Position numbers and translations under genes: made by a program | Shown here: positions 25,854-50,384 of the stretch, in pieces | Numbering within the stretch: position 1 is the first letter of the stretch | Layout of the letters: each line of letters begins with the position of its first letter | Notes under the pieces: model-generated | Seen by the model: only the letters and a program-made list of their open reading frames with translations | Told to the model about the DNA's origin: nothing | Databases searched by the model: none | From: Clostridia bacterium | GTDB taxonomy: Bacteria > Bacillota > Clostridia > Oscillospirales > Acutalibacteraceae | DNA: 64,000 nucleotides | Direction: 5' to 3' | NCBI GenBank assembly: GCA_017516315.1 | Contig: JAFXDE010000057.1 | Location: 21,225-85,224, forward strand

Positions 25854-26336
25854 ATGAACATAGGCAATCTTACATCAAAGGAAAGGCTCTTTTGTACCTA
25901 TTACTGTATTTCGAGAAACGGCGGTGAGGCGGCGGCAAAGTCAGGCTATATTTTCCCTGAAAAAAGCGCCGCGAGACTGCTTAAGAAAAAAGAGGTAAAG
26001 GAAGAAATCGAAAGAAGTGACAGAGAAAAAAGAGCCGCACAGAAGGATATTATATCGGGCTATTACCGTCTCGCCTTCGGCTGCTTTGCCGACGCGGTAA
26101 GTCTCCTTTTTAAGGACGAGGTAACTGAGGAAGAAATCAAAAAGATGGACCTTTATAACATATCCGACATTAAAAGAAAAAAGGGCGGAGAGATAGAGAT
26201 TAAATTTTTCGACCGCCTTAAAGCCCTGGAGCATTTACAGCAGATAAGCTCGCAGGAGGAAAAGGACCCTGCTGAATCTCTTTTCAGAGCGATAGAAAAG
26301 GGGGCGGCGGCCTTAAGAGATGATGAAAATGGCTGA
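25854..26336 (+). CDS. phage terminase small subunit
   Basis: 160 residues. It resembles the Terminase_2 family: LTSKERLFCTYY at the start and a helix-turn-helix-like segment GGEAAAKSGY...SAARLLKKKEV. It recognises the phage packaging site and delivers DNA to the large subunit. The ATG at 25854 is preceded by AGAAAGGGG; an upstream in-frame GTG at 25818 has no comparable site. It overlaps the large terminase by 17 bp. No clear sigma-A promoter is seen upstream, only an imperfect inverted repeat around 25768-25810. Confidence 0.85.
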   Translation: MNIGNLTSKERLFCTYYCISRNGGEAAAKSGYIFPEKSAARLLKKKEVKEEIERSDREKRAAQKDIISGYYRLAFGCFADAVSLLFKDEVTEEEIKKMDLYNISDIKRKKGGEIEIKFFDRLKALEHLQQISSQEEKDPAESLFRAIEKGAAALRDDENG

Positions 26337-27594: not shown

Positions 27595-27631
27595 AATTAT
27601 TTGTCCGACGGACAAAAGAAAGGAGAATATT

Positions 27632-29720: not shown

Positions 29721-29732
29721 GGAGGAAACATA

Positions 29733-30074
29733 ATGGATAATTATTTTGACGGCTTCGAAAGAAAGGAAGTCACTTTAATCTCAACTCAGGATGTAAAAAA
29801 AGGTGAGGTGGTGGAGTTTCTGGACTCCTACACCGTAGACAAATCTCACAGCGGAGTTAACTTCATTGGTGTATGCACCTATGCACATAAATACAATGCC
29901 AGCGTTCAGCTTAAAGGCTATACCAAAGTTAAATATACGGGTACGGCTCCTCAGTGCGGCTATGAAAAGCTCGTCGGCGACGGTAACGGCGGCGTAAAGG
30001 TCGCTGATAACGGCAGATATATTCTCGTTACCGATGTAGACAATGTGAACGGCATCTGCGGAATCATACTTTAA
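29733..30074 (+). CDS. capsid decoration (cement) protein-like
   Basis: 113 residues, beta-rich (VKKGEVVEFLDSYTV, YILVTDVDNVNGICGIIL), located between protease/scaffold and major capsid. That is the standard place of small decoration proteins that stabilise expanded heads (lambda gpD-like or DUF2190-like). The assignment rests on position, size and strand pattern. Ribosome site AAGGAGGAA. Confidence 0.6.
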   Translation: MDNYFDGFERKEVTLISTQDVKKGEVVEFLDSYTVDKSHSGVNFIGVCTYAHKYNASVQLKGYTKVKYTGTAPQCGYEKLVGDGNGGVKVADNGRYILVTDVDNVNGICGIIL

Positions 30075-30095
30075 TTTTAAGGAGGAAAGAATAAT

Positions 30096-31106
30096 ATGGC
30101 AGCATTTGATAATATCAGACTCGAAAAGGGTCTTTATACCACAGGAAAATCCTTTACTCAGGCTCTCGAAAGCATTGACCCCAGCGAAAACTACAAGGGC
30201 ACCTCGCTCGAAGGCCTCGATGCCTATCAGAGACAGCTCAAGCGCTTCGATATCAAGGTAGGCGGCAGAAACAGTGACTCCATCGAAAAGTTCTTCAGAA
30301 CCACAGACTCTGCGGCGCTTTTCCCCGAGTATATTTCCAGAGCCGTTCATCAGGGCTTTACGGAAAACGATATGGTTTCCCGTATGGTAGCTACTACTAC
30401 GGAAATCGACTCTCTTGACTACCGTTCTCTCGGAATCGATAATACGAAAAGAGAGAACTATATGACTCCGATTTTTGAGGGAACACATATTCCCGAAACA
30501 AGAGTTTCCGTAAAGGAAAATCTCGTCAAGCTCAAAAAAATCGGCAGAATGATTACCTCCTCCTATGAGGCGATCAAATTCCAGCGTCTCGACCTTTTCA
30601 CCGTAGCTCTCAAGCAGATCGGCTATTCCATCGCAATGTCAGAATTTTACAGCGCTCTCGAGGCTCTTCTTGTCGGTGACGGAAGCGGTAAGGATATCCA
30701 GGTAATCACTGTGGAAAACAGCGGTGAATTTACCTATAATGACCTTCTTAAGCTCTGGTCGTCCTTCGACGAGTTCAAGCTTACAACTCTCATTATGTGC
30801 AACGGTATGCTTTCAAAGGTTCTCAGGATGGAGGAGTTCAGAGACTCAGCGGCAGGTCTCAGCTTCCACGGCACAGGCAAGCTTATTACACCCTTCGGTG
30901 CAGAGATTATTTCCTTCCCCGGTCAGGAAGATGAAAGCATTGTAGCTATCGATAAGTCAGCCGCCCTCGAGAGAGTACAGGCAGGCGGTATCGTAACCGA
31001 TTTCGATAAGCTTATCGACAGACAGCTCGAAAGAGCCGCCGTAACGGTAACCGTAGGCTTTGCGAATATTTACAGCGATGCGGCGAAAATGCTCAGCTCA
31101 TACTGA
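30096..31106 (+). CDS. major capsid protein, HK97 fold
   Basis: 336 residues. It builds the icosahedral head. The N-terminal extension (about 1-70) is followed by the HK97-like core, with segments IPETRVSVKENLVKLKKIGR, a spine-helix region QRLDLFTVALKQIGYSIA and the glycine-rich LLVGDGSG turn. The C-terminal part (RQLERAAVTVTVGFANIYSD) fits the axial domain strands. The frame is intact, with a strong AAGGAGGAA site. Confidence 0.85.
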   Translation: MAAFDNIRLEKGLYTTGKSFTQALESIDPSENYKGTSLEGLDAYQRQLKRFDIKVGGRNSDSIEKFFRTTDSAALFPEYISRAVHQGFTENDMVSRMVATTTEIDSLDYRSLGIDNTKRENYMTPIFEGTHIPETRVSVKENLVKLKKIGRMITSSYEAIKFQRLDLFTVALKQIGYSIAMSEFYSALEALLVGDGSGKDIQVITVENSGEFTYNDLLKLWSSFDEFKLTTLIMCNGMLSKVLRMEEFRDSAAGLSFHGTGKLITPFGAEIISFPGQEDESIVAIDKSAALERVQAGGIVTDFDKLIDRQLERAAVTVTVGFANIYSDAAKMLSSY

Positions 31107-31118
31107 TGAGGTGAAGGT

Positions 31119-31481
31119 ATGCCTGATGTCAGCGATGTACTTTCCTGTCTGATGAAATATGCTGATTTAGCGACCTATTTTCCCGAACAGCTTCAGAACT
31201 ACTGCGAAAGGGGACTTAAATGGGTAGAGGATAATCTGAAGCCCGGTGCCGATAAGGAGAGTCCCCTTATCGTACCCACAGCGGCTGCTGTTGCCCACTA
31301 TTACTTTTTTCTTACACGCTTTTCGGAAACGGATAAATACGAGGCTTATACTGCAGGTGATATGACCGTGAGACGAAACATAGAAAAAGAGATGAGCTTC
31401 GAGGTCCGTATAAGGGACGAAGCGTTAGCGGCCGCTAAAGAAATTCTCAGAGACGGAGGCTTTTTATTCCGTGGAATTTGA
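31119..31481 (+). CDS. putative head-tail adaptor
   Basis: 120 residues, mostly helical (VSDVLSCLMKYADLATYF, RIRDEALAAAKEILRDG). It directly follows the major capsid gene, where gp6/gp15-like adaptors that dock under the portal are encoded. There is no diagnostic motif; the call is by position, size and helicity. It overlaps the next gene by 11 bp. Confidence 0.55.
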   Translation: MPDVSDVLSCLMKYADLATYFPEQLQNYCERGLKWVEDNLKPGADKESPLIVPTAAAVAHYYFFLTRFSETDKYEAYTAGDMTVRRNIEKEMSFEVRIRDEALAAAKEILRDGGFLFRGI

Positions 31482-31809
31482 GCTTACCGTAAAAAACAAG
31501 CTTTTCGAAAAGCTGGGAGTCAAAATCACCGTATCTAACGGAGAGAACACCGTTATTTTCAACGGATTTCTTCAGCCCTTAAGATACAAAAATAAAATAT
31601 ATCTCAGCGGTGTTCCTACAGAGCTCGGCTATGACGGACTTAATAAGTATCTGCTTATTGCACCGTGTGAGGTGGGAGAGAGCTGGCTCGAGAACAAGGA
31701 GTATACCATTCAATGTGAAGGCAACACATTTTCTACAGATCACTGCGAGCCTGTTTATTTGGGAAAGAATATTCTTTATTACTGGGCTATAGTCCATAAG
31801 GAGGGGTAA
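31471..31809 (+). CDS. putative head-closure (stopper) protein
   Basis: 112 residues, beta-rich. It starts with GTG at 31471, eleven bases after GGAGG. The length, fold character and second position after the capsid gene fit a head-closure/stopper protein. I see no sequence signature, so another connector role is possible. Confidence 0.5.
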   Translation: MEFELTVKNKLFEKLGVKITVSNGENTVIFNGFLQPLRYKNKIYLSGVPTELGYDGLNKYLLIAPCEVGESWLENKEYTIQCEGNTFSTDHCEPVYLGKNILYYWAIVHKEG

Positions 31810-31810
31810 T

Positions 31811-32221
31811 ATGCAGTCAGCGACAGCACTTATCGATTCTTTTATAATAAGGATTACCGAATCTGAGCTTCTGAGTGATTCCTGCTGTGCCATAAGAGCC
31901 TATGAAAGTAAAAACCTGCCTGTTCCCATAAGAAAGACATATTTTTCTTTTTCGGCAGCGGAGAATAAGCTTTATTATTCCTTTGATACCGACGGCACTA
32001 AAAAGGAAATAAACAGCGTAAAAATTTCAGTCAACTGCTTTATTCCTCTCGAGCTTTCACCTGCTGTAATATATACTCTCACGGAAACGGTTATGGATAT
32101 GCTTATGAAGGGAAATAAGGATATTATCGGCTTGACTGTGGGAAGGATAGAGTTTGACAATGATGTGAATGCTTTCCGCATAAACAGCGAAATTCATTTT
32201 CAGACAGAAAAAAAGGTATAA
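31811..32221 (+). CDS. putative tail-terminator/completion-like protein
   Basis: 136 residues, alpha/beta (SATALIDSFIIRITES at the start, then alternating strands). It is the last gene of the head cassette, placed where siphophage tail-terminator or neck proteins sit. If it truly is a tail-terminator, the cassette was cut exactly at the head-tail border, since no tail tube, tape measure or baseplate gene follows. The ribosome site AAGGAGG is strong. The function is by position only. Confidence 0.45.
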   Translation: MQSATALIDSFIIRITESELLSDSCCAIRAYESKNLPVPIRKTYFSFSAAENKLYYSFDTDGTKKEINSVKISVNCFIPLELSPAVIYTLTETVMDMLMKGNKDIIGLTVGRIEFDNDVNAFRINSEIHFQTEKKV

Positions 32222-36174: not shown

Positions 36175-36203
36175 TTGAAATTTTGTCGAAAAAATGTTAT
36201 GAT
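36175..36203 (+). promoter_or_regulatory. promoter of the hdr-flx-frd-fum operon
   Basis: TTGAAA (36175-36180), 17-bp spacer, TATGAT (36198-36203). The leader to hdrB is about 110 bases. Confidence 0.7.
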
Positions 36204-36319: not shown

Positions 36320-37111
36320 ATGAAGTACAGTTATTATCCAGGTTGTACCTTACGAACAAAGGCAAAAGACCTTGACACCTATGCGAGAAAATCCGCAAAG
36401 GTTCTCGGCTTTGAGCTCGAGGAGATCGAAAACTGGCAGTGCTGCGGCGGCGTGTATCCCTTAAGCAGCGATGAAATCGCCAGCAAGCTTTCTTCCGTCC
36501 GTGCTCTTAACGAGGCTAAAGTCAAGGGTCAGGAACTCGTTACCCTCTGCTCTGCCTGCTATCATGTACTCAAAAGAGTTAACGACGATATGCAGAATGT
36601 AGAGGATATCCGAGTAAAGGCAAACAACTACATGAAGCTCGAAGAGCCCTATTCAGGCGAAGCACAGGTTCTTCATTTCCTCGAAGTTCTCCGTGACAGA
36701 ATAGGTTTTGACGAGCTTAAGAAAAAGGTTGTTAATCCTCTCACCGGTAAAAAAATAGGCGCTTATTACGGTTGTCTTCTTCTCAGACCGGGCAATATTT
36801 TAGGATTTGATAATCCCGAAAACCCCACAATCATCGAAGACTTTATCCGTGCCTTGGGTGCTGAGCCTGTTATCTATCCTTACCGTAACGAATGCTGCGG
36901 CGGATACATTTCTCTTAAAGCAAAGGATCTTGCCTCGAAAATGTGCGACAACATTATGGACAGCGCAGCAGGCTTCGGTGCAGATATGCTCATCACAGCC
37001 TGTCCTCTTTGCCAGTATAATCTTACCAAAAACTCCAAGGCTACAGTTCCCGTGTACTATTTCACGGAAATTTTGGCTGAGGCATTAGGTGTGAAAGGGG
37101 AGGAAGAATAA
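36320..37111 (+). CDS. hdrB: heterodisulfide reductase subunit B-like
   Basis: 263 residues. Both CCG domains are complete: C9, C41-C42, C77 and C80, then C152, C192-C193, C228 and C231. In methanogen HdrB these hold two noncubane 4Fe-4S clusters that split the CoM-S-S-CoB disulfide. This organism is not a methanogen, so the electron acceptor must differ; with frdBA downstream it may hand electrons to fumarate reductase. The start at ATG 36320 gives the family N-terminus (YPGCTL); longer in-frame starts lack a ribosome site and the family N-terminus. The stop overlaps hdrC by one base (TAATG). Confidence 0.88.
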   Translation: MKYSYYPGCTLRTKAKDLDTYARKSAKVLGFELEEIENWQCCGGVYPLSSDEIASKLSSVRALNEAKVKGQELVTLCSACYHVLKRVNDDMQNVEDIRVKANNYMKLEEPYSGEAQVLHFLEVLRDRIGFDELKKKVVNPLTGKKIGAYYGCLLLRPGNILGFDNPENPTIIEDFIRALGAEPVIYPYRNECCGGYISLKAKDLASKMCDNIMDSAAGFGADMLITACPLCQYNLTKNSKATVPVYYFTEILAEALGVKGEEE

Positions 37112-37506
37112 TGAGCCACGCAAACAACAAAACAGCAGCGGCTAAAATCGCCGAAATCAGCGGTACTAACCCTCTTAAATGTATGAAGTGCGGCAAATGC
37201 TCTGCTTCCTGTCCCGCTTTCGATAAAATGGACATCAAACCTCATCAGTTTGTATCCTATGTAGTAAACGAAGATATTGATGCTCTTGCCAAATGTGAAT
37301 CTCTCTGGTACTGCCTTTCCTGCTTCGCCTGTGTGGAAAGATGCCCCAGAGATGTTAAGCCCGGTAAGATTGTCGACGCGGCCAGACAGATGGTTGTAAG
37401 ACAGAAGGGCGGAAATTATCTTTCAGCTAACGAAATCCCCGCACTTATCGATGACGATGTTCCTCAGCAGCTTCTCGTAAGTGCTTTCAGAAAATTCAGG
37501 AGGTGA
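37111..37506 (+). CDS. hdrC: heterodisulfide reductase subunit C-like ferredoxin
   Basis: 131 residues. Two 4Fe-4S sites: C24-C27-C30-C34 (CMKCGKCSASC) and C68-C71-C74-C78 (CLSCFACVERC). HdrC wires HdrA to HdrB. It is shorter than methanogen HdrC but retains both clusters. It is translationally coupled to hdrB and lies 4 bp before hdrA. Confidence 0.9.
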   Translation: MSHANNKTAAAKIAEISGTNPLKCMKCGKCSASCPAFDKMDIKPHQFVSYVVNEDIDALAKCESLWYCLSCFACVERCPRDVKPGKIVDAARQMVVRQKGGNYLSANEIPALIDDDVPQQLLVSAFRKFRR

Positions 37507-37510
37507 GTAA

Positions 37511-39499
37511 ATGAACGGAATAGGCGTTTTCGTCTGCCATTGCGGCAGTAACATCGCAGCTACGGTAGACGTTAAAAAGGTTGTTGAAATGGCTAAGCTT
37601 GAGCCGGGCGTAGTACACGCTGAAGAATATCAGTACATGTGCTCCGAGGCCGGTCAGGAAAGAATAGCCAAGGCTATCAGAGAAAAGAAGCTTTCCGGTA
37701 TCGTTGTCTGCTCCTGTTCACCCCGTATGCACGAAACCACTTTCAGAAAGTGCGCGGAAAAAGCAGGTCTTAACCCCTATATGGTAGAAATTGCTAACCT
37801 TCGTGAGCAGTGCTCCTGGGTACACAAGGACATTAACGAGGGTACCGAAAAGGCAGTTATCCTCACCAGAGCAGCTATCGCAAAGGTAAGCCTCAATACC
37901 TCTCTTTATGCAGGTGAAAGCGGCGTTACAAAGAGAGCGCTCGTTATCGGCGGCGGTATCGCAGGTATTCAGACAGCTCTCGACATCGCAGATGCAGGCT
38001 ACGAGGTAGACATCGTAGAAAAGACTCCCTCCATCGGCGGTAAGATGGCACAGCTTGATAAAACCTTCCCCACTCTTGACTGCTCCGCCTGTATCCTTAC
38101 ACCGAAAATGGTTGACGCAGCAGCACACGAAAAGATCAATATCTATTCCTACAGTGAGGTAGAAAAGGTATCGGGCTTCGTCGGCGACTTCACCGTTGAC
38201 ATCCGTAAAAAGGCAAGATATGTCAATATGGACAAATGTACAGGCTGCGGTGCCTGTATGGAAAAATGCCCCAGCAAAAAGGCTCTGAGTGAATTTAACA
38301 GCGGTCTCAGCACCCGCCCTGCCATCTACACTCCCTTCGCTCAGGCGATACCCAATGTTCCCGTAATCGATCCCTCTCAGTGCTTAAAGCTTAAAAATGA
38401 CAAATGCGGTCTCTGCGAAAGAGTTTGCCAGGCAGGAGCCATCGACTATAAGCAGGAGGACGAAATCGTAACCCGTAAGTACGGTGCTATCGTAGTAGCT
38501 ACAGGCTTTGAGGTAATCAAGCTCGATAATTACGATGAATATGCTTACAGTCAGAGTAAGGACGTTATCACTTCTCTTGAACTCGAGAGAATTATGAACG
38601 CTGCAGGTCCTACCAAGGGTCACCTCGAGCGTCTCTCAGACGGTAAAGCTCCCAAAAATATCGTATTTATCCAGTGTGTTGGCTCGAGATGTGCAGACGG
38701 CAAGGGTAAGAGCTATTGCTCAAAGATCTGCTGTATGTATACAGCTAAGCACGCTATCCTTATAAGAGATAAATATCCCGATGTAAACGTAACAGTATTT
38801 TACATCGATGTGCGTACACCCGGTAAGAACTTCGATGAATTCTACAGACGAGCAGTCGAGGAATACGGAGTTAATTACGTTAAGGGCCAGGTAGGTAAGG
38901 TCACTCCCGAGCCTAACGGTAAGCTTACCGTTCACGGTGTAGACCTTCTCGATAATAAGCAGCTTAAGGTTGAAGCGGATATGGTTGTTCTTGCGGCAGC
39001 TATCGAGCCCTCTCCTGAGGTAAGAAATATCGCTACAATGCTTACTGCAAGTATCGATACAAATAACTTCATAACAGAAGCTCATCCGAAGCTCCGTCCC
39101 GTAGAATCACCTACAGCAGGCGTATTCCTTTCAGGTATTTGTCAGGGACCGAAGGATATTCCCGAAACCGTTTCACAGGCAGGTGCCGCAGCAGTTAAGG
39201 TTATCGGTCTTCTCGCTAAAGATAAGCTTCTCACCAATCCCTGTACGGCTAAGGCTGACGAGCTTCTCTGTAACGGCTGCAGCGCTTGCTTCAATGTCTG
39301 TCCTTACGGTGCTATCAGCTATGAAGACAAGCTTATCAATGACCACGGTGTAAGAGAAACACGCCGCGTAGCCGTTGTAAACAATGCTCTTTGCCAGGGC
39401 TGCGGTGCTTGTACCGTTACCTGTCCCTCAGGTGCTATGGACCTTCAGGGCTTCTCAAACAGACAGATTATCGCGGAGGTGGATGCTATATGTCGATAA
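37511..39499 (+). CDS. hdrA: heterodisulfide reductase subunit A-like, bifurcating flavoprotein
   Basis: 662 residues, the normal HdrA size. N-terminal Cys domain (VCHCGSN, CSCSPRMHE), FAD domain with GGGIAGIQTA and an inserted cluster motif (FPTLDCSACILTPK), a ferredoxin pair in the middle (CTGCGACMEKC, CGLCERVC) and a C-terminal ferredoxin pair (CNGCSACFNVC, CQGCGACTVTC). In known HdrABC complexes the HdrA FAD is the bifurcation site that sends one electron to HdrB and the other to ferredoxin. All features needed for this appear present. Ribosome site CAGGAGGTG. Confidence 0.93.
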   Translation: MNGIGVFVCHCGSNIAATVDVKKVVEMAKLEPGVVHAEEYQYMCSEAGQERIAKAIREKKLSGIVVCSCSPRMHETTFRKCAEKAGLNPYMVEIANLREQCSWVHKDINEGTEKAVILTRAAIAKVSLNTSLYAGESGVTKRALVIGGGIAGIQTALDIADAGYEVDIVEKTPSIGGKMAQLDKTFPTLDCSACILTPKMVDAAAHEKINIYSYSEVEKVSGFVGDFTVDIRKKARYVNMDKCTGCGACMEKCPSKKALSEFNSGLSTRPAIYTPFAQAIPNVPVIDPSQCLKLKNDKCGLCERVCQAGAIDYKQEDEIVTRKYGAIVVATGFEVIKLDNYDEYAYSQSKDVITSLELERIMNAAGPTKGHLERLSDGKAPKNIVFIQCVGSRCADGKGKSYCSKICCMYTAKHAILIRDKYPDVNVTVFYIDVRTPGKNFDEFYRRAVEEYGVNYVKGQVGKVTPEPNGKLTVHGVDLLDNKQLKVEADMVVLAAAIEPSPEVRNIATMLTASIDTNNFITEAHPKLRPVESPTAGVFLSGICQGPKDIPETVSQAGAAAVKVIGLLAKDKLLTNPCTAKADELLCNGCSACFNVCPYGAISYEDKLINDHGVRETRRVAVVNNALCQGCGACTVTCPSGAMDLQGFSNRQIIAEVDAICR

Positions 39500-39927
39500 A
39501 TCAGGAATTTAAACCGAAAATAGTCGCATTCTGCTGTAACTGGTGCAGTTATGCAGGTGCTGACCTTGCCGGCGGCAGCAGACTTTCCTACCCCGCCGAT
39601 GTAAAGATTATCCGTGTTCCCTGTTCCTGCAGAGTAAACCCTATGTTTATTCTCCGTGCCTTCGAAAGAGGCGCTGACGGTGTTATTATCTGCGGCTGTC
39701 ATCCCGGCGACTGCCATTACAGTACAGGTAACTATTATGCCAGAAGAAGAATGACTCTTCTCTTCTCAATGCTCGATTATCTCGGTATCGAAAAGGAAAG
39801 AACCCGTGTAGAATGGGTATCTGCAGCAGAAGGTGTTAAGTTCTCCACCACTATGAATGAATTTGTTTCGGCTGTCCGTGAGCTCGGTCCGAACAGAAGA
39901 TTGGGGGATTTAAGATGCAAAGATTAA
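39490..39927 (+). CDS. flxD: MvhD/FlxD-type 2Fe-2S electron-transfer subunit
   Basis: 145 residues. It has the MvhD family Cys pattern (FCCNWCSYAGAD, VPCSCRVN, CGCHPGDCHY). MvhD bridges an input module (hydrogenase in methanogens, an NAD(P)H flavoprotein in Flx systems) to HdrA. The start ATG at 39490 follows GCGGAGGTGG and overlaps the hdrA end by 10 bp; a longer frame back into hdrA is an extension artefact. The end overlaps the next gene by 13 bp. Confidence 0.88.
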   Translation: MSINQEFKPKIVAFCCNWCSYAGADLAGGSRLSYPADVKIIRVPCSCRVNPMFILRAFERGADGVIICGCHPGDCHYSTGNYYARRRMTLLFSMLDYLGIEKERTRVEWVSAAEGVKFSTTMNEFVSAVRELGPNRRLGDLRCKD

Positions 39928-40880
39928 TAGACAGAATGAAAGAGCTTTTAGCTGACGGTACAGTTCAGCGTGTACTCGGTTGGAAGCAGGGAGATCTCGG
40001 TTATAATCCCGAACCCCATTACTTTAACAGCGCAGAGGAGCTTGACGAGTTCATCTACGACGGCTTCTGCGGTGCTAACCTCAGCAAATATATGATAAAG
40101 GGCTCAGAGCTCGAGGGTAAAACTCTCGTTCTCCTTAAGCCCTGCGATACCTACTCCTTTAATCAGCTCATCAAGGAGCACAGAGTAGACCGTGAAAAGG
40201 CTTACATCATCGGCGTAGGCTGTAAGGGTAAGCTTGACATCGAAAAGATCAAGGCTCAGGGCATAAAGGGTATCACAGCTGTTAAGGGCGCTGAAATCAG
40301 CGGCGACTGTGACGAGCTTACGGTAGAAACCGTTTACGGCGAAAAGAAGGTAGCCTATAAGGATGCGATGCTCGAAAGATGCCATGTATGTAAGGGTAAG
40401 GAGCATAAGATTTATGACGAGCTTCTTCTCGACAGCGTTGACACCTGTGACGGCGACCGCTTCGAATGTGTAGATGAACTTGACAGCCTTACTCCCGAGG
40501 AAAAGTTTAATTTCTTCCGTAAGGAGCTTTCTAAGTGTATCAGATGTAACGCCTGCCGTAATGTCTGCCCCGCCTGCTCATGCAGAAAGTGTGTGTTCGA
40601 TTCTAATAAATTCGACTCGGCACAGAAGGCAAATGTGGACCCCTTTGAAGAAAGTATGTTCCACATTATCCGTGCTTTCCATGTAGCCGGCAGATGCACT
40701 GACTGCGGTGAATGCAGCCGTGTATGTCCTCAGGGTATTCCTCTTCACCTCTTTAACAGAAAGTTCATCAAGGACATCAATGAATTCTACGGTGAATTTA
40801 TAGCAGGTGAGGATGCAGAGACCAAAGGACCTCTTACCGATTTTACATTAGATGATATTGAACCGGGCGAAAGGAGATAA
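39915..40880 (+). CDS. 4Fe-4S electron-transfer subunit, FrhB-like N-terminus (Flx-type)
   Basis: 321 residues. The N-terminal part resembles the F420-hydrogenase beta-type domain (LLKPCDTYSFNQLI, IIGVGCKGKL), with a CHVC pair after it. The C-terminal part carries a Cys-rich ferredoxin region (CIRCNACRNVCPACSCRKC) and a second cluster motif (CTDCGECSRVC). It corresponds in content to the FlxB/FlxC iron-sulfur subunits of Flx-Hdr complexes; I cannot say which. No hydrogenase catalytic subunit is nearby, so it is an electron conduit rather than an F420 enzyme. Confidence 0.8.
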   Translation: MQRLIDRMKELLADGTVQRVLGWKQGDLGYNPEPHYFNSAEELDEFIYDGFCGANLSKYMIKGSELEGKTLVLLKPCDTYSFNQLIKEHRVDREKAYIIGVGCKGKLDIEKIKAQGIKGITAVKGAEISGDCDELTVETVYGEKKVAYKDAMLERCHVCKGKEHKIYDELLLDSVDTCDGDRFECVDELDSLTPEEKFNFFRKELSKCIRCNACRNVCPACSCRKCVFDSNKFDSAQKANVDPFEESMFHIIRAFHVAGRCTDCGECSRVCPQGIPLHLFNRKFIKDINEFYGEFIAGEDAETKGPLTDFTLDDIEPGERR

Positions 40881-40884
40881 GAAA

Positions 40885-41913
40885 ATGAAAAAGTTTTTAA
40901 AATCAGACCTTAACGCTCTTCTTGATATTATTAGTGAAAAGGAAAGAATTTATCTTCCCGTTTCTGAAGCAGGTCAGACAAACTACGCTATATATAATGA
41001 AAACAGCAAGGTTGATCTTGATACTCTCAAAACCGTAAAGAGCGCCAAGGAGGTATTCTTTCCTCAGAGCGAAACTCTTTACACCGCCTTTATGGACGGC
41101 AAAAAAATCCGTATCGCACAGGAAGAGCTCGAAAAAGAAGAGTTTGTTCTTTTCGGTGTAAAGGCCTGCGATGTCAGAGGTATAGAGGTTCTTGACAAGG
41201 TTTTCCTTTCAGAGCCCGTTGACTCCTTCTATAAGGCAAGAAGAGACCACGGTGTTATCGTTGCTCTCGCCTGCGGTGAGCCTGAAGAAAGCTGCTTCTG
41301 TAAGGCCTTCGGTATCGACTGTGCCGAGCCTGAGGGCGATGTAGCTCTTTATGACTGCGGTGATTATTATTTCTGGGATGTAAAGACAGAAAAGGGTACA
41401 GCTCTTACCGAAAAATGTGCTTCTGTTCTCTCCGATGCCGAGGAGGCTCCCGTAAAAGAAAAGCAGGAAGAAATCAGAAAAATCGTTTCCCTTCTTCCTT
41501 ATATGAATATCTCCCTTGATTCCTGGAAGGGTGCAACTACTGACGAAAAGTTCAATTCCGATGTATGGGAGGAGCTTTATAAGCCCTGTCTTGCCTGCGG
41601 CACATGTACCTTCGTTTGTCCCACCTGTCAGTGCTATGACATAAAGGACTATAAAACAAAGAACGGCGTACAGCGTTACCGCTGCTGGGACTCCTGTATG
41701 TATTCCGATTTCACTATGATGGCTCACGGTAATAACAGAACAAGTCAGCTTCAGCGCTTCCGTCAGAGATTTATGCACAAGCTTGTTTACTTCCCTGCAA
41801 ATAACGACGGTATGTTCTCCTGCGTCGGCTGCGGCAGATGTGTCGATAAGTGTCCTGCAGCAGCGAATATTATCAAGGTAATCAAGGCATTTGAAAAGGA
41901 GGGCAACAGATAA
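40885..41913 (+). CDS. 4Fe-4S dicluster subunit, AsrA/HydB-like (Flx-type)
   Basis: 342 residues. The N-terminal domain (FVLFGVKACDVRGI, with ACGEPEESCFC) matches the beta subunits of sulfhydrogenase and anaerobic sulfite reductase. Two ferredoxin motifs follow (CLACGTCTFVC and CVGCGRCVDKC). The start ATG at 40885 is placed by GAAAGGAGA; a longer frame overlapping the previous gene is rejected. It touches the next gene by one base. It probably forms the electron path between the flavoprotein at 41913 and FlxD/HdrA. Confidence 0.82.
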   Translation: MKKFLKSDLNALLDIISEKERIYLPVSEAGQTNYAIYNENSKVDLDTLKTVKSAKEVFFPQSETLYTAFMDGKKIRIAQEELEKEEFVLFGVKACDVRGIEVLDKVFLSEPVDSFYKARRDHGVIVALACGEPEESCFCKAFGIDCAEPEGDVALYDCGDYYFWDVKTEKGTALTEKCASVLSDAEEAPVKEKQEEIRKIVSLLPYMNISLDSWKGATTDEKFNSDVWEELYKPCLACGTCTFVCPTCQCYDIKDYKTKNGVQRYRCWDSCMYSDFTMMAHGNNRTSQLQRFRQRFMHKLVYFPANNDGMFSCVGCGRCVDKCPAAANIIKVIKAFEKEGNR

Positions 41914-42767
41914 TGTGCGATTGTAAATGTCACGAAAATTATAATCTTGACACACTTGTACCTCTGGTAGGTGTGGTTACGGATATCCGTCAGGAAACTC
42001 CCGACGTAAAAACCTTCAGAGTAAATGCTCCCGAAGGCGGAAAGCTTTTCGAGCATATGCCCGGTCAGTGTGCTATGCTTTCAGTTCCCGGTGTCGGTGA
42101 GGCTATGTTCTCTATTACCTCTTCACCCACCAATAAGGAATATCAGGAATTCAGCATTAAAAAGTGCGGTGTTCTTACCGATTATCTCCACGAGCTTGAG
42201 GTTGGTGACGAAATCACCGTAAGAGGTCCCTACGGTAACGCTTTCCCCGTGGAAACAGAGCTTAAGGGAAAGGACCTTCTCTTCGTTGCCGGCGGTATCG
42301 GTCTCGCACCCCTTCGTTCCGTTATCAATTATGTGCTTGATAATCGCGAAAACTACGGCAAGGTAGACATTCTTTACGGCTCCCGTTCCGCTGATGACCT
42401 CGTTCAGCTCAAGGAAATCCAGGAAAAGTGGATGAATGCAAAGGATGTAAATGTTTATCTTACCATCGACAGACCCCAGGAGGGCTGGGACGGTCATGTA
42501 GGCTTCGTTCCCGCTTATCTTAAGGAGCTTGAGCTTTCAGCGGATAAGACTGTTCTTGTCTGCGGTCCGCCGATTATGATTAAGTTTGTTCTTGCTGCCC
42601 TTACTGAAATGGGCTTTTCAAAGGAGCAGGCATATACTACTCTCGAGCTTCGTATGAAGTGCGGCGTAGGTAAATGCGGCAGATGTAACATCGGCTCCAA
42701 GTATGTATGTAAGGACGGACCCGTTTTCCGTTGTGACGAAGTAGACGAATTACCCGACGAGTATTAA
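41913..42767 (+). CDS. flxA: NAD(P)H-binding flavoprotein, FlxA/AsrB-like
   Basis: 284 residues. Ferredoxin-NADP-reductase fold: an FAD-binding barrel (TFRVNAP, MFSITSSP), then the NAD(P)-binding domain (LLFVAGGIGLAPLRS, VLVCGPPIM), and a C-terminal 2Fe-2S site (CGVGKCGRC...C). It takes electrons from NADH or NADPH and passes them to the iron-sulfur subunits. The same protein type is the NAD(P)H entry point in FlxABCD-HdrABC and gamma subunits of sulfhydrogenases. The sequence does not settle NADH versus NADPH. Confidence 0.85.
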   Translation: MCDCKCHENYNLDTLVPLVGVVTDIRQETPDVKTFRVNAPEGGKLFEHMPGQCAMLSVPGVGEAMFSITSSPTNKEYQEFSIKKCGVLTDYLHELEVGDEITVRGPYGNAFPVETELKGKDLLFVAGGIGLAPLRSVINYVLDNRENYGKVDILYGSRSADDLVQLKEIQEKWMNAKDVNVYLTIDRPQEGWDGHVGFVPAYLKELELSADKTVLVCGPPIMIKFVLAALTEMGFSKEQAYTTLELRMKCGVGKCGRCNIGSKYVCKDGPVFRCDEVDELPDEY

Positions 42768-42788
42768 TCTGGAAAGGACATTATAAAT

Positions 42789-43463
42789 ATGAGCAATTTA
42801 GTAAATGTATATTTTTTCGGTAAAAAGTATGAAGTACCGGGCGAAATGACCATTATGACTGCTATGGAATATGCAGGCTATACTCTCTCCAGAGGCTGCG
42901 GCTGCCGTCACGGCTTCTGCGGTGCCTGTGCCACCATTTACAGAATCAAGGGTGACAATACTCTCAGAACCTGTCTTGCCTGTCAGAAGCAGGTTGAGGA
43001 TGGTATGTATGTAGCATCTATTCCCTTCTTCCCCACAGACAAGAGAATCTACGATATCAACGAGACAAAGCCCACAGAAAAGGTTATGATGGAGCTTTAT
43101 CCCGAGATTTACAGCTGTATCGGCTGTAATGCCTGCACAAACGCTTGTACTCAGGACCTTAATGTAATGCAGTACATCGCTTATGCACAGAGAGGCGAAT
43201 ACGAGAAGTGTGCTGAGGAATCCTTCGACTGTGTAGCCTGCGGCTGCTGCAGCGTAAGATGTCCTGCAGAAATCTCTCATCCTATGGTAGGTCTTCTTGC
43301 CAGACGTATGGTCGGCAAGTACATCGCTCCCGAAACTGAGCATCTTCACACCAGAGTAGAAGAAATCAATAAGGGCGCTTATGATGAGCTTATCGAAAGC
43401 ATTATGCAAAAGCCCATCACAGAAATGAAAGAACTCTACAATACCAGAGAAATCGAGAAATAA
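42789..43463 (+). CDS. frdB: fumarate reductase/succinate dehydrogenase-type iron-sulfur subunit
   Basis: 224 residues. The N-terminal plant-type 2Fe-2S site is C37, C39, C44, C47 and C62/C65 (CGCRHGFCGAC...CLAC). The C-terminal domain has two cluster motifs (CIGCNACTNAC and CVACGCCSVRC). It lacks the HdrB-like CCG extension of methanogen TfrB and the quinone-site context of membrane Frd. No membrane anchor subunits are encoded nearby. It should connect the Hdr module to the flavoprotein encoded 14 bp downstream. Confidence 0.85.
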   Translation: MSNLVNVYFFGKKYEVPGEMTIMTAMEYAGYTLSRGCGCRHGFCGACATIYRIKGDNTLRTCLACQKQVEDGMYVASIPFFPTDKRIYDINETKPTEKVMMELYPEIYSCIGCNACTNACTQDLNVMQYIAYAQRGEYEKCAEESFDCVACGCCSVRCPAEISHPMVGLLARRMVGKYIAPETEHLHTRVEEINKGAYDELIESIMQKPITEMKELYNTREIEK

Positions 43464-43477
43464 GGAGGGAAAATCCA

Positions 43478-45076
43478 ATGTTTACAGCTGATATGCTCGA
43501 ATCAATAAAAAAGGTTGAAGCAACCAGAGAAGAAAGAATGAAGACAGAGCCCCGCAGAATGACTGCTGAGGAAAAGGAGACCCTTCTTAAGGAATATCAT
43601 CCCGACTACCGTGCAGACGGCTTTGCTGAAATCAAGATAGGTCCCAATAAGGGCCAGAAGGCTCCCAAAGAGCTCACAGACCTTCTTCATTCAAACAGCA
43701 GACTTTTAAAGACACCGGTTGACCTTTCAAAGGTTGACTATGAAACAGATGTTCTCGTTATCGGCGGCGGCGGTGCAGGCTCATCTGCAGCTATCGAAGC
43801 TAACGAAGCAGGCGCTGATGTAATGATCGTTACAAAGCTCCGTATCGGTGACGCCAACACAATGATGGCTGAAGGCGGTATCCAGGCAGCTGACAAGGAA
43901 AACGACTCTCCCGTACAGCATTATCTTGATGCTTTCGGCGGCGGTCACTTCGCAGCAAGACCCGAGCTTCTCAGAAGACTCGTTATGGAAGCTCCCGACG
44001 CTATCAGATGGCTTAATGACCTGGGCGTTATGTTCGACAAGGAAGAGGACGGCAGAATGGTTACTACCCACGGCGGCGGTACCTCGAGAAAGAGAATGCA
44101 CGCATGTAAGGACTATTCAGGTGCAGAGATTATGAGAAACCTCCGTGACGAGGTTCTCAACAGAAACATTCCCGTTATCGAATTCACCTCAGCAGTTGAG
44201 CTTATCAAGGACGATAAGGGTCAGGTAGCAGGTGCTGTTCTCCTCAATATGGAAACAGGTGACTACCTCGTAGCTAAGGCTAAGACAGTAGTTATCGCTA
44301 CCGGCGGTGCAGGCAGACTTCACTACCAGAACTTCCCCACCTCAAACCACTATGGTGCTACAGCTGACGGTCTCGTACTCGGCTACAGATGCGGCGCACC
44401 TCTTCTTTATCAGGATACTATCCAGTATCATCCCACAGGCGTTGCTTATCCCTCACAGCTTTTCGGTGCTCTCGTAACCGAGAAGGTTCGTTCACTCGGC
44501 GCAATGCTTGTTAACAAAGACGGTGAAGCTTATGCTCATCCTCTCGAAACCAGAGACGTTTCCGCATCCGCGATTATCCGTGAATGTGCTAACGGAAGAG
44601 GCGTAGATACTCCTCTCGGCAGCGGTGTATGGCTTGACACTCCGATGATCGAAATTCTCGGCGGTGAAGGCACTATCGAAAAGAGAATCCCCGCTATGAT
44701 GCGTATGTATCTTAACTACGGCATCGATATGAGAAAAGAGCCCATACTCGTTTATCCCACACTTCACTATCAGAACGGCGGTCTTGAAATCGGCGGTGAC
44801 GGCTTTACCAAGGCTATTCCCAATCTTCTTGTTGCCGGTGAAGCAGTAGGCGGTATCCACGGCAGAAACAGACTTATGGGTAACTCTCTTCTCGACATCA
44901 TCGTATTCGGCAGAAACGCAGGTAAGGCTGCAGCTGCTAAGGCCAAGAGTGTAGAGCTCGGTGCGATGAATCTTGACCACATCGTTTCTTATGCCAAGGA
45001 GCTCGAAGAAGCAGGTCTTGCTACAGATGCAGTATCACCCCTTCTTCTTCCTAAATATGCAAGACACGAAAGATAA
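43478..45076 (+). CDS. frdA: fumarate reductase flavoprotein subunit, soluble type
   Basis: 532 residues. It reduces fumarate to succinate at FAD. FAD motif IGGGGAGSSAA, MMAEGGIQAA, active-site elements HPTG, VTEKVR, TRDVSAS, LHYQNGG and GRNRLMGNSL are in order, so fumarate chemistry is expected. At the place where membrane FrdA/SdhA carry the His that binds FAD covalently (HTVAAEGG) this protein has Asn (NTMMAEGG), so FAD should be noncovalent, as in soluble fumarate reductases and L-aspartate oxidase. It is followed 14 bp later by fumarase. Aspartate oxidase is unlikely given the paired FrdB. Confidence 0.88.
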   Translation: MFTADMLESIKKVEATREERMKTEPRRMTAEEKETLLKEYHPDYRADGFAEIKIGPNKGQKAPKELTDLLHSNSRLLKTPVDLSKVDYETDVLVIGGGGAGSSAAIEANEAGADVMIVTKLRIGDANTMMAEGGIQAADKENDSPVQHYLDAFGGGHFAARPELLRRLVMEAPDAIRWLNDLGVMFDKEEDGRMVTTHGGGTSRKRMHACKDYSGAEIMRNLRDEVLNRNIPVIEFTSAVELIKDDKGQVAGAVLLNMETGDYLVAKAKTVVIATGGAGRLHYQNFPTSNHYGATADGLVLGYRCGAPLLYQDTIQYHPTGVAYPSQLFGALVTEKVRSLGAMLVNKDGEAYAHPLETRDVSASAIIRECANGRGVDTPLGSGVWLDTPMIEILGGEGTIEKRIPAMMRMYLNYGIDMRKEPILVYPTLHYQNGGLEIGGDGFTKAIPNLLVAGEAVGGIHGRNRLMGNSLLDIIVFGRNAGKAAAAKAKSVELGAMNLDHIVSYAKELEEAGLATDAVSPLLLPKYARHER

Positions 45077-45090
45077 GGAGGACTTTTCAA

Positions 45091-45933
45091 ATGCGCGAAA
45101 TCAGCACAGATATTATCAGAGACACTATTGAAAAGCTTTGTATCGAAGCTAACTGCCACCTTCCCGGTGACGTAAAGTGTGCCATCGAATCCTGCCGTAA
45201 GTGTGAAGACGGACTTATTGCTCAGGGTGTTCTCGATGACATCATCGAAAACTATAAAATCGCTGACAATGAAAATGTACCCATCTGTCAGGATACAGGT
45301 ATGGCTTGTGTATTCCTTGAAATCGGTCAGGATGTACACATCGTAGGTGAAAACCTTGCGGACGCTGTAAACGAAGGTGTTCGTAGAGGCTACGATAAGG
45401 GTTATCTCCGTAAGAGTGTAGTTAAGGACCCCATCAGAAGAGGTAACACAGGTGACAACACACCCGCTATGCTCTACACAGAAATCGTTCCCGGCGAAAA
45501 CATTAAAATTACTGTAGGTCCTAAGGGCTTCGGCAGTGAAAACATGAGCGCCATCCGTATGTTCAAGCCCTCCGCAGGTCTTCAGGGCATTAAGGATTTC
45601 ATCATCGAAACAGTCGAAACAGCAGGTCCTAACCCCTGTCCTCCTATGGTAGTAGGTGTAGGTATCGGCGGTACCTTCGACAAGGCTGCTCTTTTAGCTA
45701 AGAAGGCTCTTATGAGACCCATCGACTCCGAAAATCCCGATCCCTACTATGCAGATCTTGAAAAGGAAATGCTCGAAAAGATCAACGAGCTCGGCATCGG
45801 ACCTCAGGGCTTCGGCGGTAAGACCACAGCTATCGGTCTTAACATCGAAACTCTTCCCACTCTCATCGCAGGTATGCCTTGTGCCATCAACATTAACTGC
45901 CACGTAACACGTCATCAGTCGGAGGTAATCTAA
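45091..45933 (+). CDS. fumA: fumarate hydratase class I, alpha subunit
   Basis: 280 residues. Fe-S hydro-lyase alpha domain: [10 protein letters not shown] holds one cluster Cys, with [10 protein letters not shown] and [12 protein letters not shown] downstream and [17 protein letters not shown] near residues 184-200. With the beta subunit it interconverts malate and fumarate via a 4Fe-4S cluster. L(+)-tartrate dehydratase uses the same two-subunit layout, but direct linkage to fumarate reductase favours fumarase. Ribosome site AAGGAGGA. The beta subunit begins one base after this stop. Confidence 0.92.
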
Positions 45934-45934
45934 A

Positions 45935-46492
45935 ATGGAAAAGAAAATTACATTACCCCTCACCGAGGAAATCGCCAAGACCCTCAAGGCAGGCGACAGA
46001 GTTCTTCTTACAGGTATTATCTACACCTCCAGAGATGCAGGTCACAAGAGAATGTGTGAAGCTCTCGCAAGAGGCGAAGAATTACCCATCGATCCCATGA
46101 ATGCTACCATCTACTATGTTGGTCCTACACCTGCCAAGCCCGGTACGGTTATCGGCTCAGCAGGTCCCACAACCAGCGGCCGTATGGATGCTTATGCTCC
46201 TACAATGATGTCCGTCGGTGCCAGAGGTATGATAGGTAAAGGTGCAAGACTTCCCGAAGTAGTAGACGCTATGAAAAAATACTCCGGCGTTTACTTCGGT
46301 GCTATCGGCGGCGCAGGTGCTCTCCTTGCTAAGTGCATCAAGAGCGCAAAGCTCATCGCATACGAGGATCTCGGTGCAGAGGCACTCCGTGAGCTTTATG
46401 TTGAGGATATGCCTCTCGTAGTTATTATTGACAGCGAGGGTAACAACCTTTACGAGCTCGGCAGAGAAGAATATCTTAACAGCAAGAAATGA
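45935..46492 (+). CDS. fumB: fumarate hydratase class I, beta subunit
   Basis: 185 residues. Fe-S hydro-lyase beta domain with LLTGIIYTSRDAGHKRM, IYYVGPTPAKPG and SAGPTTSGRMDAYAP. It completes the fumarase active site. It is the last gene of the 11-gene operon, with a perfect-stem hairpin right after the stop. A separately encoded beta subunit is normal for clostridial and archaeal fumarases. Confidence 0.92.
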   Translation: MEKKITLPLTEEIAKTLKAGDRVLLTGIIYTSRDAGHKRMCEALARGEELPIDPMNATIYYVGPTPAKPGTVIGSAGPTTSGRMDAYAPTMMSVGARGMIGKGARLPEVVDAMKKYSGVYFGAIGGAGALLAKCIKSAKLIAYEDLGAEALRELYVEDMPLVVIIDSEGNNLYELGREEYLNSKK

Positions 46493-46500
46493 TTATAAAC

Positions 46501-46534
46501 AAAGAACCGCCGTGGTAAAAAACGGCGGTTCTTT
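46501..46534 (+). terminator. terminator of the hdr-flx-frd-fum operon
   Basis: A perfect 13-bp stem AAAGAACCGCCGT/ACGGCGGTTCTTT with an 8-base loop. The T tract is short. Confidence 0.75.
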
Positions 46535-46571
46535 GCATTAGTTCGGCTACTATCTTTTTTAGTGGAATTTC

Positions 46572-49121: not shown

Positions 49122-50384
49122 TCAGAAAAGAATGATAAGGAACTGTGACACAAGCACGACTGCGATAAGTGCGATGGGGTAGGTAGAAGCATAAGCTGCT
49201 GCTACATCCTCTGTACCCGCTGTACTGATGAGAGTACCGAGGGCGGGAGTAGAGGTCATACCGCCGGTGATTGAGCCGAGGTTATTGAGAAGGCTTAATT
49301 TGAGTACATACTTAGCGAAGAGGTAACCGATGATGAGAGGAAGAAGAGTCATAATGATACCGTATACAAAGTACATAGCATCGAAGTTCTCTACAAATTC
49401 TGCACCGCCGGGGATACCTGCACCGACGAGGAAGAGTACGAGACCGAGCTCACGGAAAAGCTTGAGAGTGGTCTGTGAGGGCATAATGCTGAGCTTACCG
49501 ATGCGTGAGAAGTGACCGAGTATAAGGCTTACAAGAAGGCAGCCGCCTGTGGTTGTAAGTGAGAAGCAGGTACCGCTGAGACCTGCGGAGGAAAGGGGAA
49601 TTTTTATCTGACCTAAGAAGGAGCCGAGGATAGCAGCGAGAGAGAAAGCGGCTATACCCATGTGGTCCAGGTGGAAAAGCTTACCTGTGTAGGCTTTCTT
49701 TTCTTCTTCTTCCTTGATTACGAGCTTTGCTCTTTCTTCGTCCATATTAGCCTTTGTGAGCTTAGGGATGATCTGAACGAAGAGAACTACGCCGATAACA
49801 CCGAAGATGTAAGCGATGCCGTGACCTACGGAAACGAGAGCCTGATACTGCTCAGCGACTGTGGCTTTAGCGGCTGAGAAAGCAGGAGTAGAGGTAAGAG
49901 AGCCTGAGAGAAGACCTACGATCATAGCAACGAAGCCGTCCTGCTCTGTGATGGAGCCGCCGTAGCCGAGAACTTCACCGAGAGCGATACAGCCGGCAGC
50001 GGAAAGACCGCCTGCGAGGATAATGATGAGACCTAAAAGAACATAGGATTTAAAGTTTCTTTTGAAGTTGCCGAAGAATTTCGGACCTGCGATAAAGCCT
50101 ACTGATGTTACGAAAAGAACGAGGCCAAGGCTTTCTATCAGAGAAAGTCCCGCGTTAAAGTCATAAGGCTTAGAGGAAAGAGCGAATACTAACTGTCCGT
50201 CAGCGTTAACGCTGAAAGCAAGAGCGCCGAGAAGAAGAGCGATGATAAAAACGCCTGCGTCGCCCAGAGAGATACCCTTAACTGTGATTCTGCCGAGAGC
50301 ATAACCGCCGAAGAGAACAGCGAACACTACTAAAAGTAAGGTTGAGATGTTACTGATGGAGATGACTCCGCCTAATAAACTCAT
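49122..50384 (-). CDS. AspT/YbjL-family (AAE) membrane exchanger, possible dicarboxylate exporter
   Basis: 420 residues with about ten to eleven membrane segments in two halves. Each half has the family repeat: LLSGSLTSTPAFSAA in the first and ITGGMTSTPALGTLIS in the second, with a central charged cytosolic loop (LTKANMDEERAKLVIKEEEEKK). Aspartate:alanine exchangers and the succinate exporter SucE1 belong to this family. Given the fumarate-reducing operon 3 kb away and pckG at the right edge, succinate or another dicarboxylate is a reasonable substrate guess, but aspartate/alanine exchange is equally compatible. The TrkA_C domains found in many homologues are missing. It is monocistronic. Confidence 0.83.
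   Translation of the reverse strand: MSLLGGVISISNISTLLLVVFAVLFGGYALGRITVKGISLGDAGVFIIALLLGALAFSVNADGQLVFALSSKPYDFNAGLSLIESLGLVLFVTSVGFIAGPKFFGNFKRNFKSYVLLGLIIILAGGLSAAGCIALGEVLGYGGSITEQDGFVAMIVGLLSGSLTSTPAFSAAKATVAEQYQALVSVGHGIAYIFGVIGVVLFVQIIPKLTKANMDEERAKLVIKEEEEKKAYTGKLFHLDHMGIAAFSLAAILGSFLGQIKIPLSSAGLSGTCFSLTTTGGCLLVSLILGHFSRIGKLSIMPSQTTLKLFRELGLVLFLVGAGIPGGAEFVENFDAMYFVYGIIMTLLPLIIGYLFAKYVLKLSLLNNLGSITGGMTSTPALGTLISTAGTEDVAAAYASTYPIALIAVVLVSQFLIILF

Follow-up and report, generated by a model that had tools for sequence, protein, structure and literature searches.

An operon of 11 genes at 36320-46492 in a 64,000-nucleotide stretch of DNA from a Clostridia bacterium of the order Oscillospirales (this whole stretch is the window) was studied. 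With a probability of roughly 0.7, its product is a soluble, succinate-forming Flx-Hdr-Frd complex, which oxidizes NAD(P)H and reduces both ferredoxin and fumarate. The window corresponds to C10:21225-85224 of the source genome (G000), which comprises 2.06 Mb in 57 contigs and is 82% complete. Cooperation between Flx-Hdr and FrdBA is indicated because their linkage is conserved, their genes occur in permuted orders, the accompanying fumarases are interchangeable and the HdrB subunit is Frd-specific. We infer from these data that the subunits form a physical complex, which path the electrons take, that they bifurcate, in which direction the reaction runs and which nucleotide is used. The initial annotation of the window had proposed an electron-bifurcating enzyme with fumarate as the acceptor; fumarate as the acceptor and the cooperation of Flx-Hdr with FrdBA are now strongly supported, while bifurcation is suggested by homology (FlpD and an HdrA with the flavin-N5 lysine).

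The open reading frame (ORF) listing of the window contained all 11 ORFs on one strand in the order hdrB-hdrC-hdrA-flxD-flxC-flxB-flxA-frdB-frdA-class I fumarase alpha-beta, and the distances between neighbours were -1, 4, -10, -13, 4, -1, 21, 14, 14 and 1 bp. The uninterrupted unit described initially, with overlaps or gaps of less than 25 bp, was therefore confirmed, the widest gap being 21 bp. Likewise, no hydrogenase, DsrC or coenzyme M/coenzyme B (CoM/CoB) gene was found among the 11 genes, and there was no gene for a membrane anchor of Frd in the unit, in agreement with the same annotation. Its gene names were backed by Pfam and NCBIfam scans, in which the FrdA models scored below cut-off, with two amendments: FrdB is not a canonical SdhB, and the flxD start at 39490 had been absent from the earlier text. 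The Kyte-Doolittle mean over 19 residues was at most 1.33 in ten of the proteins and reached its maximum of 1.84, above the usual limit of 1.6, within the NAD-binding domain of FlxA. Because the nine-gene order recurs across the taxonomic order and in named contigs, the operon goes beyond a chance arrangement.

Co-occurrence was surveyed in 394 genomes of the order, where the FrdA clade was defined by an E value of at most 1e-60 (best rows 63-100% identical) and FlpD was counted at its cut-off; the sub-cut-off FlpD match of G399 was left out of these counts. FlpD was present in 68 genomes, the FrdA clade in 66 and both in 62. In 60 of the 62 genomes with both, frdA followed flxD on one strand at a distance of 3.5-3.9 kb, and in the other two the genes were on different contigs. 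FlpD occurred without FrdA in 6 genomes and FrdA without FlpD in 4, two of the latter matches being contig-edge fragments in genomes that are 73-77% complete. The genomes are related, so that a Fisher test of co-occurrence overstates the evidence; the stronger point is that the gene order stays constant while FlxB drops to approximately 50% identity. Full units were also seen in 55 of 63 order loci, which is not an independent sample: the 40 order loci were chosen from FrdA-bearing genomes, nearly all of which already had FlpD nearby. The counts over 394 genomes represent the independent sample.

A scan of named contigs (alignment headed by L075) gave at least 588 relatives, of which the best 80 were kept, and 27 of these 80 had less than 8 kb upstream and were left out. 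Complete, ordered hdrBCA-flxDCBA-frdBA was found in 52 of the 53 loci with at least 8 kb upstream among these best 80; in the single exception, L129, only flxD was undetected. None of these best 80 records bore the name of Pseudoclostridium thermosuccinogenes. The titles of the named loci mostly denoted gut metagenome-assembled genomes labelled Clostridia, Oscillospiraceae or Lachnospiraceae. The complete unit was also present in Blautia glucerasea MSK.21.93 (L174) and [Clostridium] asparagiforme DSM 15981 (L177), and these named strains make the idea directly testable. Within the window's own genus, FrdA (E at most 3e-91) was distributed patchily (19 of 34 genomes) and existed in two versions approximately 75% identical to each other. 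The loci L012-L018 and L022-L030, all from one genus, have FrdA that is 90-96% or 72-75% identical to that of the window, and the two sets occupy separate places in the FrdA tree. The unit has probably been exchanged horizontally.

Outside the order, a sample of 398 genomes of the phylum yielded 40 FrdA-clade rows (E at most 4.4e-183) in 39 genomes, the source genome included; 30 of the 39 other rows were fetched as loci, and 9 were left out. An FlpD match was present anywhere in 35 of the 39 FrdA-clade genomes compared with 160 of 398 overall. HdrA and FlxD were encoded near FrdA in 9 of the 30 fetched loci, with the order frdBA-hdrBCA-flxDCBA in L035, L038, L039 and L040 and the order hdrCBA-flxDCBA-frdBA in L049. 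The arrangement hdrC-hdrB-frdBA, with neither HdrA nor Flx, was found in L041, L043, L055 and L059. On the FrdA tree (88 rows; five rows cut by contig ends were left out), the presence of Hdr-Flx needed 7 changes, at least 6 of which were forced by well-supported branches. The other four of the nine loci with HdrA and FlxD, L031, L033, L037 and L045, appear to encode a larger Hdr complex: upstream of frdBA they have hdrC, hdrB, hdrA and several additional HdrA-like ORFs, together with flxD and an ORF distantly similar to FlxC. Some FrdA end branches without nearby Flx-Hdr were long (L060, 0.27; L061, 0.76; L042, 1.31; L048, 0.96; median 0.094), and so were some Flx-Hdr-linked ones (L049, 0.54; L045, 0.36). 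The long branches without Flx-Hdr look as if constraint had been relaxed.

The features of HdrA-type flavin-based bifurcating complexes were found in the unit, namely homology to HdrA with the flavin-N5 lysine, the FlpD/MvhD adaptor (FlxD) and a donor module (FlxCBA), in which FlxA would be the entry point of NAD(P)H. Residue K413 of HdrA aligns with Lys409 of M. thermolithotrophicus HdrA, which is described as binding flavin N5. K413 and E359 were kept in 64 of 64 aligned proteins, one of which (L063) is not Frd-linked, and the cysteine motifs for iron-sulfur (FeS) clusters were kept as well. Many FlpD matches of the phylum sample (e.g., G472, G726, G441 and G487) are interrupted by a single in-frame TGA, and in L194 and L197 two ORFs together make up HdrA; selenocysteine forms of FlxD and HdrA are a likely reason. 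No in-frame TGA was present among the FlpD matches of the order list.

The genomic context and the energetics were compatible with ferredoxin coupling. Ferredoxin has a potential of -420 to -500 mV, and the standard potentials of NAD(P) and fumarate are given as -320 mV and +33 mV; the energy of the coupled reaction calculated from standard potentials is -49 to -33 kJ/mol. The source genome has an RnfC match of 483 bits and, outside the operon, four [FeFe]-hydrogenase domain matches. Since RnfC matches in 58 of 59 relatives and [FeFe] hydrogenase in 59 of 59 are near-universal, these are non-discriminating. No match to the UbiA family at E 0.001 was found in the 82% complete source genome or in 54 of 58 relatives (55 of 59 together), and all 14 control genomes had one; this pattern across relatives is stronger than the single absence in the source genome. 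A plain, non-bifurcating NAD(P)H:fumarate reductase, in which HdrA would only relay electrons, is an unlikely alternative. It would agree with the occurrence of FrdBA without nearby Flx-Hdr in other lineages and with the fact that homology is what points to bifurcation, but HdrA keeps the flavin-N5 lysine, E359 and the FeS cysteine motifs, families of ferredoxin-using enzymes are present in the genome, and maintaining nine subunits for a reaction without coupling would presumably be expensive.

Ordinary Flx-Hdr units, mostly ordered hdrC-hdrB-hdrA-flxDCBA, served for comparison. As a control, 20 FlpD loci were taken whose genomes lack FrdA of this clade, and 15 HdrB and 13 FlxA sequences of these loci were kept by length and score; L001-L010 (duplicates) and ORFs outside the length and identity limits were left out of the residue alignments. 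Of the 83 rows in the HdrB tree, 68 are Frd-linked, and 67 of these fell on one side of a branch with a support of 99 in the Shimodaira-Hasegawa-like approximate likelihood ratio test, with the 15 ordinary proteins and L045 on the other side. The FlxA tree needed two changes for the same split. The median length of HdrC was 130 aa in Frd-linked units with Flx-Hdr versus 190 aa in ordinary Flx-Hdr units. When six Frd-linked HdrB proteins were scored with both models, SdhE came out above HdrB in 5 of them (L045 among the 5), compared with none of 5 ordinary ones, all scores being far below cut-off. Judged from the tree, HdrB is a Frd-specialised subfamily. The four hdrCB-frdBA loci lacking HdrA and Flx fall among the 67 Frd-linked proteins, and because they keep the same HdrB subfamily, it is suggested that a FrdBA-HdrBC module may predate or have outlived the coupling to HdrA-Flx.

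FrdB has 12 cysteines invariant in 87 of 87 proteins, which correspond to one [2Fe-2S] set and two [4Fe-4S] sets. Because of this E-type cysteine pattern and of the split between HdrB subfamilies, it is suggested that HdrB may pass electrons directly to FrdB. According to another explanation, Flx-Hdr would reduce a disulfide as in Desulfovibrio, where DsrC is the partner in the published model (PMC10084766), and FrdBA would be a separate enzyme that shares the operon or is fed by a thiol. All ten cluster cysteines of HdrB are invariant in 67 of 67 aligned proteins, which speaks for it, but there was no DsrC match in the 82% complete source genome, no CCG domain, which TfrB carries, was found on FrdB (224 aa) with Pfam, and the Frd-specific HdrB accompanies FrdBA in four loci devoid of HdrA and Flx. 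This explanation appears slightly less probable than the plain reductase.

The AlphaFold model of FrdB had a mean predicted local distance difference test (pLDDT) score of 69, and no Foldseek match to it reached E 0.001, the weaker ones being to [2Fe-2S] proteins. The FrdA model (pLDDT 75) had E. coli FrdA as its best structural match, and the best NCBIfam model of FrdA was TfrA (341 bits, cut-off 718). FrdA residues 1-87 (window 43478-43738) form a conserved extension outside the alignments to solved SdhA and FrdA chains, and this extension was confidently predicted (ten-residue means 77-97). The histidine for covalent binding of flavin adenine dinucleotide (FAD) is replaced with asparagine in 93 of 93 FrdA proteins. 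Five dicarboxylate-site residues, aligned with H242, E255, R286, H354 and R399 of E. coli SdhA, are invariant in all 93, and the threonine at T254 is kept in 92 of 93. Three assignments were rejected. L-Aspartate oxidase was discarded because FrdA scored 260 bits with NadB, against cut-offs of 453-726 of the NadB models shown and 341 bits with TfrA. A classical quinol:fumarate reductase (FrdABCD) does not fit, as there is no anchor gene and no [3Fe-4S] pattern, and Asn127 stands in place of the FAD histidine. Membership in TfrAB was rejected since the C-terminal CCG domains of TfrB were not found on FrdB.

The most frequent unit in the order is mdh-fumC-hdrBCA-flxDCBA-frdBA, often followed by a transporter, and the unit of the window represents a variant in which frdA is followed by class I fumAB. 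Among 63 order loci (window included), the neighbouring fumarase belonged to class II (fumC) in 35 and to class I in 22, with neither in 6 and both in none. In the 80 named loci (the best 80 of at least 588), fumC was found in 43, class I in 11, neither in 26 and both in none. FumC scored 712 bits, over its cut-off. For the neighbouring dehydrogenase, L-lactate dehydrogenase models were over cut-off and one malate dehydrogenase (MDH) model was just below. Arginine or glutamine at the specificity loop separates malate from lactate dehydrogenases, and the MDH-type arginine was present in 55 of 63 neighbouring dehydrogenases, the other 8 giving no pattern match. An AspT/YidE/YbjL-type transporter was seen in 33 of 62 fetched order loci, and a relative often adjoins frdA; this family presumably resembles the succinate exporter SucE of Corynebacterium. 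Because two unrelated fumarases have joined one unit, fumarate is the likely substrate of FrdA.

Reverse operation, in which succinate and ferredoxin would be oxidized to form NADH (confurcation), seems very improbable. Loss of the corresponding His44 of E. coli FrdA reportedly keeps fumarate reduction and abolishes succinate oxidation, so that the asparagine found in all 93 proteins would be expected to favour fumarate reduction, and the MDH-type dehydrogenase, fumarase and exporter-like neighbours fit a reductive branch, although Flx-Hdr is reported to run in reverse during Desulfovibrio pyruvate fermentation in the published account (PMC10084766). Reduction of another 2-enoate, with an incidental fumarase, is improbable to the same degree: the FrdA superfamily does include urocanate reductase and aspartate oxidase among the Protein Data Bank matches, but the dicarboxylate site is conserved, the unit is joined by either of two unrelated fumarases, relatives have malic enzyme, pyruvate carboxylase or MDH-type neighbours, and a separate NadB-like protein (36% match) is encoded at G000:C36.

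Several observations weigh against a dedicated Flx-Hdr-Frd complex. Genomes G214 and G321, which are 99% complete and belong to the same family, have FrdA without FlpD and are true exceptions in the order; in the phylum sample, G495, G498, G722 and G803 have the FrdA clade without any FlpD match. Neither HdrB nor HdrA with FlxD was found in 17 of the 30 non-order loci, five of which have less than 3.2 kb on one side, and among the 17 are loci next to genes for malic enzyme together with fumarase, for pyruvate carboxylase or for an NrfH-like cytochrome. Because G214, G321 and the non-order loci have FrdA without Flx-Hdr, FrdBA can take electrons elsewhere, that is, it is a module able to use other donors. 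On the side of the Hdr proteins, the Frd-linked locus L045 has an HdrB of the ordinary type, and the matching split in the HdrA tree has a support of only 64. The SdhE score of the window HdrB was 155 against a cut-off of 500, and ordinary HdrB proteins (n=5) scored higher in absolute terms. HdrB keeps both noncubane clusters, which is compatible with disulfide chemistry. Finally, no fusion of unit proteins (two matches at E 1e-8 in one ORF of at least 60 aa) was found in L001-L190 and the window, the control loci L191-L210 being outside this set. As a separate observation, frdBA in L051 (9429-12253) adjoins a gene for a cytochrome c that resembles NrfH (78 bits, below the cut-off of 134), which suggests that this lineage uses another electron donor.

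The following scheme is proposed for the Flx-Hdr-Frd complex. NAD(P)H would be oxidized at FlxA, and electrons would pass through FlxB, FlxC and FlxD to the FAD of HdrA and be split there. One branch would exit through the FeS domains of HdrA to ferredoxin, and the other would run from HdrC through HdrB and FrdB to FrdA and fumarate. The predicted stoichiometry is 2 NADH + fumarate + 2 Fd(ox) -> 2 NAD+ + succinate + 2 Fd(red), where Fd is ferredoxin. Instead of reducing disulfides, HdrB would be docked to FrdB and relay electrons in the manner of SdhE. Fumarase would supply fumarate from malate on the spot, the AspT/YidE-type exporter may release succinate, and reduced ferredoxin could then be consumed by Rnf or hydrogenases.

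A broader proposition, for which the chances appear about even, is that gut Clostridia commonly have a bifurcating fumarate reductase that works without quinones and that HdrB has been turned into an SdhE-like relay on FrdB, which would re-target Hdr bifurcation from disulfides to an organic acid. If this is true, succinate formation is a quinone-independent means of energy conservation in many fermenting gut bacteria, with fumarate as the high-potential acceptor that pays for the ferredoxin on which Rnf or hydrogenase later draws. It would also explain succinate formation by Clostridia in which quinone synthesis is not detected, and an organic acid would join the acceptors of Hdr complexes.

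Table 1. Features of the operon and its surroundings, with positions in the window.
Feature	Position	Strand	Basis
Promoter match, sigma-70-like, TTGAAA-17-TATGAT; candidate operon promoter	36175..36203	+	Consensus match only
hdrB, two CCG domains, 10 Cys for two noncubane [4Fe-4S] clusters; assigned to Frd-specialised subfamily	36320..37111	+	Pfam/NCBIfam, Cys count, tree
hdrC, subunit with two [4Fe-4S] clusters, 131 aa (short form)	37111..37506	+	Pfam/NCBIfam (Fer4)
hdrA, FAD/FeS subunit, candidate bifurcation site	37511..39499	+	HdrA2-like 792 bits; 5odc_A 677 bits
flxD, FlpD/MvhD-like subunit	39490..39927	+	Pfam FlpD 185.6 bits; NCBIfam VhuD 136 bits (below cut-off); start read from sequence
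flxC, FeS subunit, 4Fe-4S dicluster domain	39915..40880	+	Pfam
flxB, FeS subunit, sulfhydrogenase beta / AsrA-like	40885..41913	+	NCBIfam; 9nez_B 162 bits
flxA, FAD-/NAD(P)-binding FeS subunit, sulfhydrogenase gamma / AsrB-like (HydG/AsrB-like)	41913..42767	+	Pfam/NCBIfam; 9nez_C 208 bits
frdB, N-terminal [2Fe-2S] domain and two [4Fe-4S] motifs, no [3Fe-4S] pattern, 224 aa	42789..43463	+	Pfam, Cys alignment
frdA, fumarate reductase flavoprotein, 87-residue N-terminal extension, Asn127 at covalent-FAD His	43478..45076	+	NCBIfam, PDB matches, alignment, model
Fumarase class I alpha subunit	45091..45933	+	NCBIfam PRK06246 410 bits, cut-off 276
Fumarase class I beta subunit (fumB)	45935..46492	+	NCBIfam PRK06842 297 bits, cut-off 238; TIGR00723 over cut-off
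Candidate terminator, hairpin of 14 bp, no clear T-run	46500..46535	+	68 nt after fumB fold at -27.0 kcal/mol
AspT/YidE/YbjL-family transporter, candidate succinate exporter	49122..50384	-	60.5% identity to L013 transporter; duplication domain over cut-off

The single promoter and single terminator named in the initial annotation were retained as candidates (Table 1). The promoter corresponds to a consensus match, and promoter-consensus matches in that region numbered 30 compared with 19.0 (standard deviation 4.6) in shuffles. At the proposed terminator, the hairpin is present, and the terminator scan did not call it. Elsewhere in the window, a block of same-strand ORFs at 25818-32221 resembles phage packaging and head genes by eye, from ORF starts only.

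Among known systems, the closest is the 'succinate operon' of Pseudoclostridium thermosuccinogenes (CDQ83_RS03315-03365), which is described as encoding fumarate hydratase, seven Flx-Hdr proteins, two fumarate reductase proteins and a possible succinate exporter (BMC Microbiol 2020, PMC7282089). Its gene content, compared by description only, matches the window in fumarase, seven Flx-Hdr genes and frdBA. It has one fumarase gene, which adjoins Flx-Hdr by locus-tag order, whereas the window has class I fumAB after frdA; the exporter is listed with that operon, whereas its relative in the window lies 2.6 kb downstream on the other strand. According to the same article, low CO2 upregulated the operon approximately 4-fold, an increase that did not reach significance for every subunit, and a link between fumarate reduction and ferredoxin reduction was proposed there and, as cited in it, in a 2019 preprint by Koendjbiharie and van Kranenburg.

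In Thioflavicoccus and tubeworm symbionts, Flx-Hdr genes are interspersed with a putative thiol:fumarate reductase in a korABCD-tfrAB-flxABCD-hdrABC cluster, for which direct electron delivery from Flx-Hdr to Tfr was suggested in 2019 (PMC6315080). As described there, that cluster differs in belonging to the reverse tricarboxylic acid cycle, with 2-oxoglutarate:ferredoxin oxidoreductase. The same seven Flx-Hdr genes make up FlxABCD-HdrABC of Desulfovibrio vulgaris, which is reported to couple NADH to ferredoxin (Ramos et al. 2015, via citing papers; PMC10084766); the acceptor there is the DsrC disulfide, whereas the unit of the window is linked to FrdBA. The 15 ordinary clostridial Flx-Hdr units differ from Frd-linked ones in the HdrB subfamily and in the longer HdrC. 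In the E-type enzyme of Wolinella (SdhABE), as published, a second [4Fe-4S] cluster takes the place of [3Fe-4S] in SdhB, and SdhE carries a motif of ten cysteines that relates it to HdrB (PMC2680327). FrdB with two [4Fe-4S] sets and HdrB with ten cysteines resemble it, but the Wolinella enzyme is quinone-linked, and in the window, from a genome lacking a UbiA match, the HdrB-like subunit sits in the Flx-Hdr module. The likeness to TfrAB noted initially holds for FrdA, whose best match is TfrA; it fails for FrdB, as the role of the CCG domain of TfrB would fall to the separate HdrB, and none of the 11 genes is a CoM/CoB gene.

Experimental proof of Flx-Hdr-linked fumarate reduction was not found among the open-licence papers listed. 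The idea of ferredoxin coupling by Flx-Hdr-Frd is not new, having been put forward in 2019/2020 for P. thermosuccinogenes. What is new here is the recurrence of the unit in many gut bacteria with near-constant spacing and the class I fumarase built into it.

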